From Deltaproteobacteria bacterium RBG_13_61_14 (GTDB taxonomy: Bacteria > RBG-13-61-14): a stretch of 5,949 nt of DNA. Both the position numbers and the translations under genes were made by a program. Of this stretch, positions 1 to 4,883 are shown piece after piece; the first letter of the stretch is position 1; every line of letters begins with the position of its first letter. The notes beneath the pieces are model-generated. The model was not told the DNA's origin. It was given only the letters and a program-made list of their open reading frames with translations, and did not search any database. The stretch covers positions 15,820 through 21,768 of the forward strand of contig MGQK01000034.1 of NCBI GenBank assembly GCA_001797815.1, read 5' to 3'.

Positions 1-878
1 CCGCCGGCCGGACCAGGGATCTGGTCGGCGGTGACCTCGGTGCTGACGTCCGGGTAGCCGCCGGTGCTCTCGGTGATGTCCCCGCTCGCATACCAAGTTA
101 CGCCCCCCGCTTGATCGCAGTCGTCGGTATAAACGGCACAGGAGCCGGAGTAATCGCAGACCGCGGTGAACATCTGGTAGCCGCCTTCCGGGAGGTCAAT
201 GGCGCCGCCGGACATGGCCGAGATCGGGATAATGTCCAGGCTCATCAGGTCGCAAGTGGCTTCGGCCACATCCACGGTGGCGCTGTCCAAAGCCATGGAG
301 ACCATGCATTGGACCTCATCGGTTGCCGGCGCCATCGTGCCCGCTGTATACTCTCCGGTCATTTCATCAATCCAGCCGGCGGAATCACCGAAGAGATAAT
401 AGAACGGGTCGTAGCCCTGGGGGTTGAACTCGCTGGTGGTATAACCGTCGGACCAATAGGCCACGCAGTAAAAGTCCACGGAATCTCCTGGACTCACGCT
501 CAACGGGCCGTCCGGGGTGAGATCCACCGAGACCACGGTATCATCGTTCAGCACGTTGACGTTGGTGTTGTCCCAGCCATAGCCGACGCCATAGGAGACG
601 GTTCCTTCAATAAAGCCCGAGCCGCCGGCAGGACCAGGAATTTGGTTGGCAGTGAGCATCGTGCTGAGCGTGGGCGTGCCCCCGGAGTTTTCCCAGACGT
701 CGCCGCTGGCATACCATTCAACCCCTCCGGCCTGGGTGCAATCATCGTAAAAAGTGCCACAGCCGGTCCCGGAATAATCGCAGGCTGCGGTGAATAGCTG
801 GTAACCGTCTTCGATTAAGTCAATGGAGCCGCCCATCATCGCGGCTACCGGAATAATATCCAGGTAGATCAGCTCGCA
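1..878 (-). repeat. Tandem ~624-bp repeat encoding the Ig-like unit (one full copy, one partial)
   Basis: The full copy spans 255-878 (residues 119-326). The second copy starts at 254 (residue 327) and is cut by the window edge after 84 residues. Over that overlap about 56 residues match with a single one-residue gap, including LDIIP, GYQ-FTA-CDYSG, DDC-QAGGV-WYASGD and QIPGPAG. The copies have diverged in synonymous positions too, so the duplication is not recent. More copies may lie to the left of the window. Confidence 0.85.
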
Positions 879-1232
879 ATCGCCGCCGCCGCAGTCCTCC
901 GGGCAAAACATCTCATCTTCCCAAGGCGGCTGGCAGAAGGTGTCCCCGCAGTAGCAATCAAAGGAACAATTCCCCGGGTCTTCGCCCAAGCCCGGTTCGC
1001 AGATCATGTTCATGTTGCAACCGCCGGTGCAGTCATCCGGACAACTTCCCGCGTCTTCATAAGGTGGTTGACAGAGACTATCCCCGCAATAACAATCATC
1101 GGAGCAAGTCACCGGGTCTTCCGCAGGAGGTTCGCAGATGCCGTTCGGACACATCTGTGCCCCGACACTGGCAGGAAGACCAAACAGCACCATCAAGCAA
1201 ACTCCAATCCAAATTTTCCTGATCCAGTTCAT
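1..1232 (-). CDS. Secreted cysteine-rich repeat protein with tandem Ig-like units (C-terminus beyond window)
   Basis: Reading leftward from ATG at 1232, the frame stays open for 410 codons to the window edge, so the 3' end is missing. Residues 1-25 form a signal peptide (MNWIRK, hydrophobic core, then ASVGA before Gln26), so the protein is predicted to be exported. Residues 28-114 hold four cysteine modules with spacing near C-x4-C-x9-C-x3-C, of the type CGDxxCxxPxEDxxxCPxDC. A roughly 208-residue unit begins at Cys119 (LDIIPVAAM) and again at Cys327 (LDIIPISAM). Each unit looks like two Ig-like or BIG-like subdomains: a YSG...WYASGD pattern, then a YWSDG...TGEYTAGT pattern. Extra cysteines suggest disulfides. 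Similar short cysteine modules occur in secreted proteins of several bacterial groups. The specific function is unknown; adhesion or a surface-structural role is inference. The start is set by GGAGG ten bases upstream. The frame is also open back to an ATG at 1388, but that start has no ribosome site and would bury the signal peptide. Confidence 0.88.
   Translation of the reverse strand, partial: MNWIRKIWIGVCLMVLFGLPASVGAQMCPNGICEPPAEDPVTCSDDCYCGDSLCQPPYEDAGSCPDDCTGGCNMNMICEPGLGEDPGNCSFDCYCGDTFCQPPWEDEMFCPEDCGGGDCELIYLDIIPVAAMMGGSIDLIEDGYQLFTAACDYSGTGCGTFYDDCTQAGGVEWYASGDVWENSGGTPTLSTMLTANQIPGPAGGSGFIEGTVSYGVGYGWDNTNVNVLNDDTVVSVDLTPDGPLSVSPGDSVDFYCVAYWSDGYTTSEFNPQGYDPFYYLFGDSAGWIDEMTGEYTAGTMAPATDEVQCMVSMALDSATVDVAEATCDLMSLDIIPISAMSGGAIDLPEGGYQMFTAVCDYSGSCAVYTDDCDQAGGVTWYASGDITESTGGYPDVSTEVTADQIPGPAG
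891..1151 (-). repeat. Four tandem cysteine-module repeats inside the secreted protein
   Basis: Residues 28-47, 49-68, 72-93 and 95-114 each carry four cysteines and acidic pairs before the third and fourth (for example CxxPxED and CPDDC). The first, second and fourth share exact spacing C-x4-C-x9-C-x3-C. The third is looser (x5 and x10). The period is 21-23 residues, or 63-69 bases. The second and fourth units are the most alike (YCGDSLCQPPYED and YCGDTFCQPPWED), which suggests they arose by duplication of a two-unit block. Confidence 0.85.
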
Positions 1233-1242
1233 GACTCGATGT

Positions 1243-1247
1243 CCTCC
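1243..1247 (-). promoter_or_regulatory. Ribosome binding site that sets the secreted-protein start
   Basis: GGAGG (within AAAGGAGGAC on the minus strand) lies ten bases before the ATG at 1232. It supports that start over the in-frame ATG at 1388, which has no such site. Confidence 0.8.
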
Positions 1248-1309
1248 TTTTGCGAACGCATCCACCTTGCTCAAACTCCCGGCCGCTTCTCTTGGCGGCT
1301 TTCTCAAAC

Positions 1310-1350
1310 AAAAAAGCCGCGAGATGGCCTGAACCACCCTCCCGCGGCTT
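1310..1350 (-). terminator. Intrinsic terminator or attenuator ahead of the secreted-protein gene
   Basis: On the minus strand AAGCCGCG (1350-1343) pairs perfectly with CGCGGCTT (1321-1314) across a 21-base loop, and the stem runs into six T residues (1315-1310). It lies 78 bases before the ATG and about 270 bases after the inferred transcription start, so it is placed as an attenuator in the leader. It could alternatively terminate read-through from purC, whose stop is about 370 bases upstream. Confidence 0.6.
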
Positions 1351-1560
1351 GATCCGACTTGACCTTCCAGTTCATGAACTTTACTCATACCCGGCCGGTT
1401 TTTTTCCAAAACCCTGAGGGGATCTCAAATTCGATCCATTAACCATTTCATTCCCGAGCCAGCACCTTCTCCAGGCAATCGGACGACCTCAGCGGACTGC
1501 CGCGGGAACATGGGGGACCAGGGACGAGAAAGCCGACACGGGAAATAGTGCCAAGGCCTC

Positions 1561-1610
1561 AAAAAAGAACCAATAGTAAATTCCCTGAATTCCCTGTGAA
1601 ATGTTGGTTC
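1561..1610 (-). terminator. Terminator-like hairpin immediately after the promoter start
   Basis: On the minus strand GAACCAA (1610-1604) pairs with TTGGTTC (1573-1567) across a 30-base loop, followed at once by six T residues (1566-1561). The stem is only 7 bp with 3 GC pairs, so it is weak. The loop holds a short direct repeat (ATTCCCTG twice, on the plus strand). It would end a transcript of about 55 bases from the promoter at 1623-1651. Confidence 0.4.
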
Positions 1611-1622
1611 AAAAACGCAAAA

Positions 1623-1651
1623 ACTATACCACCCGGTTCACTCCCTGTCAA
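1623..1651 (-). promoter_or_regulatory. Strong sigma70-type promoter for the secreted-protein leader
   Basis: On the minus strand TTGACA (1651-1646) is followed after exactly 17 bases by TATAGT (1628-1623): a perfect -35 and five of six bases of the -10. Transcription should start near 1616, giving a leader of about 385 bases before the ATG at 1232. A hairpin-forming inverted repeat, TCAAGA-AAAA-TCTTGA (1648-1663), overlaps the -35 box and could be an operator, though that is inference. Confidence 0.75.
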
Positions 1652-1716: not shown

Positions 1717-2604
1717 TCAGGATTCGCCCATCAGGATTCGCTGGGCTTGCAGGTACTTCTTCGTGGTCTTCCGGACAATGTCGTCGGGCAGTTCCGGCGC
1801 CGGCGGGATCTTGTTCCAGCCGATCCCGATCAGGTAGTCCCGCACGAACTGCTTGTCAAAACTGGGCTGCGGTCCCCCGGGCCGGTAGCTCTCGGCCGGC
1901 CAGAAGCGGGAGGAGTCCGGGGTGAGCATCTCGTCAATCACCAGGAGCTTCCCGTCCTTGAGCCCGAACTCGAACTTGGTGTCCGCCACGATGATCCCCC
2001 GCGCCTTCGCATAGTCCGCGGCAAATTGGTAAATCGCCAGCGCCTTGTCCCGCACTTCTTTCGCCCGCTTCTTGCCGAGCAGCTTCTCCACCGCGGCAAA
2101 GGCGATGTTCTCGTCGTGGATCCCGATCTCCGCCTTGGTCGAAGGCGTAAAGATCGGCTCCGGCAACGCCTCCGACTCCCGCAGGCCCCGGGGCAGCTTG
2201 ATCCCGCACAACGCGCCGGTCTCCTGGTATTCTTTCCAGCCCGAGCCGGAGAGATACCCCCGCACCACCGCCTCCACCGGCAAAGGCTCGGTCTTCTGCA
2301 CCACCATCGCCCGCTCCTTAAGCATCTTCCGCGACTCGGAATCTTTGACCACGTCCCCCACGGTCTTCCGGCTCAAATGGTTCGGGCAAAGCTTCTCGGT
2401 CTTCTCGAACCAGAAGCGCGACAGCGAGGTCAGCACCGCTCCCTTCTCCGGGATGGGCGTGGGCATGACCACGTCAAAGGTGGAGATGCGGTCGGTGGCC
2501 ACGATCAGGAGTTCCTGGCCCAGGTCGTAGATATCGCGGACCTTGCCCCGCTTGAGGAGCTTGAAGCCGGGCAAGTGGGTTTCGGTCACTGTGCTCGCAG
2601 CCAT
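1717..2604 (-). CDS. purC: Phosphoribosylaminoimidazole-succinocarboxamide synthase (SAICAR synthetase)
   Basis: This cytosolic enzyme of de novo purine biosynthesis joins CAIR and L-aspartate, using ATP, to make SAICAR. The 295-residue product shows the family landmarks in order: [10 protein letters not shown] (20-29, nucleotide-binding loop), [18 protein letters not shown] (38-55), [15 protein letters not shown] (113-127), [14 protein letters not shown] (153-167), DTKFEFG (208-214) and [14 protein letters not shown] (223-236). The length fits the longer (about 300-residue) form of the family. The frame is open further upstream to 2736, but ATG at 2604 is chosen: it has GGAGG ten bases before it, and the protein starts as the family does. 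The start overlaps the last 19 bases of the upstream ABC ATPase gene, so the two are probably co-transcribed and may be translationally coupled. No key residue is missing. Confidence 0.96.
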
Positions 2605-4372: not shown

Positions 4373-4735
4373 TTACTGCCAGTAAGGCAGGATTTCTCTG
4401 AGCGCGCGCTTCTCCGCCTCCCCCACGCGGTAAGGCTGGATGGCGCGGCTCTCGTAGCTCTCGAGCTGCGCGGCGATGGAAAAGGATTTGGTCTCCGGGA
4501 AAAGGGGCGCGCCCCGGAGCTTGCTGGTGCGGTTTCCCACGATCAGCTCTTCCGGAGCGATGCGGATGGACATGTTGGTGAGGAGGTGCTCGAGCGCGCG
4601 GGCGTTGCGGACGACCTGGGGCTGGCCTTGGGTTCTGCGCTGGGCTTCGGTCCAGAGCACGGCCCGCTCGGCGCAGACCTCGAAAGGAGCCTCGAGCAGT
4701 CTCTGCTTGAGCCGCGGCGCGCGACCTTCCCTCAT
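4373..4735 (-). pseudogene. N-terminal remnant of a glycyl radical enzyme (pyruvate formate-lyase family)
   Basis: The 120-residue frame matches the start of PFL-family glycyl radical enzymes. It has a first helix (LKQRLLEAPFEVCAERA, 9-25), then TEAQRRT with a following PQVVRNARALEHLL, the hallmark ELIVGNRTSKLRGAPLFPE (63-81), and EKRALREILPYW (108-119). Family members are about 800 residues long, with a catalytic cysteine mid-protein and a radical glycine near the end. Both are absent, because a TAA follows PYWQ at 4375-4373, directly beside a dispersed repeat. No continuation is visible in any frame beyond the stop, so this is a deletion or insertion breakpoint rather than a single frameshift. 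The subclass (formate-lyase, diol dehydratase and so on) cannot be assigned from this part. A functional short protein is possible but unlikely. ATG 4735 has no Shine-Dalgarno site; the promoter suggests a leaderless message. Confidence 0.8.
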
Positions 4736-4846: not shown

Positions 4847-4883
4847 AAAAAAATCCCCCTGCCCGGACGGACAGAGGGATTTT
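4847..4883 (-). terminator. Rho-independent terminator of the Hsp20 gene
   Basis: On the minus strand arms at 4881-4869 and 4864-4852 form a 13-pair stem (two G-U pairs) closed by a four-base loop, followed by a seven-T tract (4853-4847). It starts 25 bases after the Hsp20 stop. A TTTTCTTTC run on the plus side (4880-4888) gives it weak bidirectional character. Confidence 0.88.

Follow-up and report, generated by a model that had tools for sequence, protein, structure and literature searches.

The window (the whole stretch of 5,949 nt that was analysed) is C34:15820-21768 of the 4.74-Mb draft genome of Deltaproteobacteria bacterium RBG_13_61_14, for which close genomes are scarce among those searched: two are from the same order, and the next are related at the domain level only. 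The elements of interest all lie on the minus strand, where purC is followed by an intergenic stretch and then by a signal-peptide gene with its ATG at 1232. In the order of transcription, the features are:

1717-2604, minus strand: purC (SAICAR synthetase), the upstream co-directional gene (PF01259, 3.4e-74)
1623-1651, minus strand: predicted promoter TTGACA-17-TATAGT, TG-extended, start expected near 1616 (11 of 12 consensus positions, enrichment, shuffles)
1567-1610, minus strand: weak hairpin GAACCAA..TTGGTTC, then T6; probably no terminator (z -1.2, pattern search)
1493-1508, minus strand: segment A (UUCCCGCGGC, then GUCCG), 5' strand of the predicted antiterminator (shuffles, genome windows, pair list)
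1357-1492, minus strand: multibranched region inside the A:B helix, a putative sensor domain (fold of 1509-1337)
1339-1356, minus strand: segment B (CGGA..GCCGCGGGA), 3' strand of the predicted antiterminator (folding, pair list)
1309-1350, minus strand: intrinsic terminator with a stem of 11 bp and 3 inner bp, followed by T6 (z -5.2; rank in genome sample)
1295-1305, minus strand: segment D (..AAAGCCGC), predicted partner of 1320-1310, the 3' arm of the terminator, when antitermination has freed this arm in the full-length leader
1243-1250, minus strand: Shine-Dalgarno sequence AAAGGAGG, about 10 nt 5' of the ATG (sequence)
3-1232, minus strand: 5' part of the giant secreted-protein gene, with signal peptide MNWIRKIWIGVCLMVLFGLPASVGA; extends past the window

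The secreted-protein region occupies C34:1-17051, in which 984 codons are followed by a frame change at an assembly gap and then by a 4768-codon frame that runs off the contig end; the two frames are a single giant gene or two, with a total of at least 17 kb. Residues 1-410 of the secreted protein are without a Pfam match, and other large secreted proteins of the same genome hold similar repeats. (A 'DGDGNLLIGVPDLNRINLILNG' motif of the giant gene, close to the contig edge, resembles the start of a paralogue on contig C35 and is dockerin-like by eye). An in-frame N-terminal extension starting at 1388 or 1409 was rejected because the signal peptide would become internal. An exact 12-nt repeat, TCATGAACTGGA on the minus strand, is found at the start of the secreted gene (1223-1234) and at the leader ATG that opens a short frame at 1375-1304 (1366-1377). 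Elsewhere in the window, a 120-aa frame (4373-4735) matches the first fifth only of a pyruvate formate lyase-like profile (PF02901, positions 4-122 of 647) and is probably a gene remnant.

In the initial annotation a near-consensus promoter starts a transcript about 385 bases 5' of the ATG, with two terminator hairpins in between. The promoter is borne out: the site is TG-extended, has a spacer of 17 and agrees with the consensus at 11 of 12 positions, and its expected start near 1616 predicts a leader of 385 nt. When the intergenic stretch (484 nt) is shuffled by mononucleotides, a site of this grade appears on one strand in 10 of 2000 cases. In a 377-kb genome sample, sites of at least 11/12 number 11 in the 71 kb called intergenic vs 5 in 306 kb of coding DNA, and are accordingly about nine times denser in the former. 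Between terminator and ATG the top σ70 match is 7/12, which is the usual value in shuffled sequence. An exact 11-nt repeat, TTTTTGAACCA on the minus strand, flanks the promoter at 1605-1615 and 1680-1690, 75 bp apart; these repeats could be operator sites, though the hexamer test is not significant. The threefold occurrence of TGAACC around the promoter was rejected as an operator: one hexamer or another is present three times in 10.6% of intergenic windows.

One of the two hairpins stands as a terminator. The downstream hairpin, 1350-1314, has a folding energy of -23.7 kcal/mol vs -12.1 +/- 2.2 in shuffles (none of 300 as stable), is followed by T6 and ranks with the cleanest intrinsic terminators of the genome sample. 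It lies ~370 nt past purC and about 75-80 nt (77) before the ATG; many clean terminators of the sample stand ~50-70 nt past stop codons. (A very clean one near 4853 on the minus strand, ~54 nt past an Hsp20 gene, is a typical gene end here). The upstream hairpin, 1610-1567, is at chance level and was rejected as a second terminator: its 7-bp stem closes a ~30-nt loop at -8.5 kcal/mol, and 36 of 300 shuffles are as stable. Its inverted-repeat pattern occurs once per genome in three genomes, near chance expectation, and a mobile or repeated element was also rejected: the genome has a single copy, the core has no exact counterpart in viral contigs, and no plasmid or phage matches.

The 5' arm of the terminator (1350-1339) is part of segment B, and it has a second potential partner upstream. 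Nucleotides 1508-1499 are perfectly complementary to 1348-1339 of this arm, and the helix is extended by pairing of 1497-1493 with 1352-1356. In the folding model A:B and the terminator are mutually exclusive, which makes A:B a predicted antiterminator. Folding of growing transcripts gives A:B a probability of 0.9-1.0 until the terminator is complete (to 1320) and of ~0.01 at 1308, rising back to 1.0 in the full leader; the terminator has a probability of 0.97-0.99 from 1316 to 1300. A:B returns once segment D has paired with the freed 3' arm, and in the minimum-energy fold D and 1320-1310 form 11 consecutive pairs. (These are equilibrium calculations rather than kinetics). With either structure forced at 1308, A:B has an energy of -103.3 kcal/mol vs -106.0 kcal/mol for the terminator, a gap of 2.7 by which the terminator is slightly more stable. 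This near-isoenergetic balance and the alternative pairing are, like the promoter match and the terminator, properties that computation establishes for the locus.

The pairing of 1508-1499 with 1348-1339, which the initial annotation did not report, was discovered by inspection. Dinucleotide shuffling of the leader yields a partner for B as good as A in 4 of 1000 cases, and 22 of 1354 genome windows contain one (1.6%, a modest figure). The A:B domain as a whole (1509-1337) folds at -64.2 with z -2.5, its boundaries having been picked after the fold was seen, and the stability of the whole leader is ordinary (z -0.96 vs shuffles). On these folding models, the predicted antiterminator pairing is the best evidence for regulation.

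Controls were drawn from 1.42 Mb of the same genome, with genes called roughly and starts approximate. Among the 337 genes with 200 nt or more of free sequence upstream, 14 have a clean terminator no more than 350 nt from the start. When clean hairpin-plus-T sites are ranked by the antiterminator test, a rank of 0.02 or less is reached by 4/17 in leaders, 2/30 at gene ends and 7/137 in coding sequence. Rfam identifies one of these four sites in leaders (L167:341-473) as a TPP riboswitch (RF00059), which has its own terminator, so the pairing test finds real switches and the organism uses them; of the three low-rank leader sites besides the one under test, this riboswitch alone has independent support. 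Leader terminators are found at 3 of 19 large genes vs 11 of 318 others (Fisher p 0.04), which is weak evidence; the count includes the locus under test. Upstream of the paralogous giant secreted gene (L123:6540 on contig C35) there is likewise a strong terminator (-21.7 kcal/mol, TTTTT), which ends ~80 nt before the ATG, a distance like that at the window gene; the paralogue's leader is without comparable antiterminator pairing and without sequence similarity to the window leader. (The region upstream of this paralogue, L123:5990-6540, is AT-rich, with a possible promoter TTGACA-17-TAAAAG, TG-extended, ~540 nt ahead). The genome further encodes a NusG-like protein (L157:12219-12803, C53) in a polysaccharide-type neighbourhood, a possible RfaH/LoaP-like antiterminator.

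The initial annotation recognised no known class and proposed comparison with Rfam; on this point it was right, in that the best matches of the leader to Rfam 15 covariance models, at permissive limits too, are far below gathering scores, with no riboswitch among them. The c-di-GMP riboswitch models RF01051 and RF01786 have no match in the leader or elsewhere in the genome, and 6S RNA (RF00013) is not matched here, the genome's 6S RNA being at C81:64965-65143. A ribosome-mediated attenuator with a leader peptide was rejected: the short frames at 1511, 1451 and 1375 are without a good ribosome site or codon runs. (The last of these, 1375-1304, has 23 codons and crosses the terminator). The leader is single-copy in its own genome, is not found by DNA comparison in 97 other genomes and has no match in phage or plasmid records. 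A one-sequence covariance model found no homologue in the 40 other genomes to which it was applied (41 in all), a failure that says little for a model of a single sequence. Nor is the leader found beside purC homologues, of which the best has 63% identity and none is from a close relative, and a PurC scan of 84,980 species at one genome per species, from which records of this or very near genomes were perhaps omitted, turned up no close relative. There is no covariation to analyse because no homologous leader was found in the genomes searched.

The region can be thought of as the transcription-attenuator leader of the giant secreted-protein gene, a known kind of device that would constitute a new class only if it is a sensor RNA; this is our best explanation, and we put its chances at about even. 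The attenuator- or riboswitch-like layout that was initially proposed holds in its general form (predicted promoter, leader, intrinsic terminator and mutually exclusive antiterminator, with no σ70-like promoter between terminator and gene) and fails in its two-terminator picture. In the proposed mechanism, RNA polymerase would start near 1616, and as the leader emerges segment A would pair with B, closing the multibranched domain. Once segment C (1324-1314) has emerged, it could invade and pair with B, forming the terminator, which would end the transcript near 1309 at a length of about 305 nt. Were the A:B domain stabilised by a signal, be it a small molecule, a protein, an RNA or a ribosome, C would stay free to pair with D, and polymerase would continue into the gene region. 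That the switch operates, its direction of control, its function and the existence of a signal are what we infer from this arrangement. The truncated ~305-nt RNA might be released and have a role of its own. An undescribed cis-regulator is possible; the more specific proposal, that an undescribed riboswitch or RNA-sensing attenuator restricted to a sparsely sampled lineage decides transcription of the giant region, is doubtful.

The chief rival to the attenuator reading, which we regard as conceivable and not probable, divides the region differently: the promoter at 1651-1623 would make a stand-alone small RNA of ~305 nt ending at 1350-1314, and/or the hairpin would end purC read-through, while the secreted gene would have a non-σ70 promoter of its own between 1309 and 1232. 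Promoter and terminator do bracket a unit of this length, and a clean hairpin-plus-T of the kind that other genes often have is absent just past the purC stop. On the other hand, a terminator standing alone has no use for an antiterminator, and few of those at gene ends have one (the 2/30 above). Moreover, no Rfam small RNA is matched and no σ70-like site lies 3' of the terminator.

It is unlikely that there is no regulation here at all, with a leaky or accidental terminator, an A:B pairing that is a coincidence among GC-rich repeats and low constitutive expression. GCGGC/GCCGC words do recur across the leader, the match frequency of A:B in genome windows and the ordinary stability of the whole leader are as expected for this case, and conservation is not demonstrable; against it stand the z of -5.2 and T6 of a hairpin located within a promoter-bearing leader, and the rarity of clean leader terminators among genes with free upstream space. 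Protein-mediated processive antitermination, in which a factor loaded on the leader or the polymerase would carry transcription through the terminator of a very long gene in the manner of LoaP, RfaH and AlpA, is very improbable: the length of the gene, the second, divergent NusG-like protein and the terminator at about -80 common to two giant secreted genes are in its favour, but the NusG paralogue adjoins a DegT-type aminotransferase and a CapD-like membrane protein far from the gene (annotation by eye), and the two leaders have no common sequence usable as a loading site.

If the attenuator works as proposed, it is a case of a cell that controls at the RNA level what it spends on one of its longest genes, in a lineage of which few members have been sequenced, and the leader is then clearly a candidate new sensor RNA. 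A single-copy, single-genome case is a lead rather than a class. Premature termination is widespread in E. coli 5' UTRs (PMC7815308), and thousands of sensor RNAs are predicted to be still undiscovered (PMC10043782).

Among known systems, processive antitermination of the LoaP/RfaH type (e.g. PMC12691694) likewise carries polymerase past terminators that precede or lie within long transcription units; at the window gene a loading site or linked factor was not identified, and the NusG paralogue is located elsewhere. The c-di-GMP riboswitches that precede extracellular and adhesion genes (e.g. PMC4933901) are comparable as leaders of genes for large surface or extracellular proteins, and differ in that the window leader matches neither of their two models. 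The TPP riboswitch of the same genome is closer in construction, in that its terminator 5' arm also has an upstream alternative partner and is flagged by the same pairing test; it belongs to a recognised class with a conserved aptamer, whereas the window leader matches no class. Rli51, the 121-nt leader of Listeria monocytogenes mpl, has been studied experimentally and responds to another small RNA (PMC11394854). The window leader is longer (385 vs 121 nt) and slightly favours the terminator at the decision point, and the likeness is one of layout, with no sequence relation claimed. This layout is common to the two: the leader of a secreted-protein gene, a predicted fold into terminator or competing antiterminator, and with it the release of a short RNA on termination (PMC11394854).
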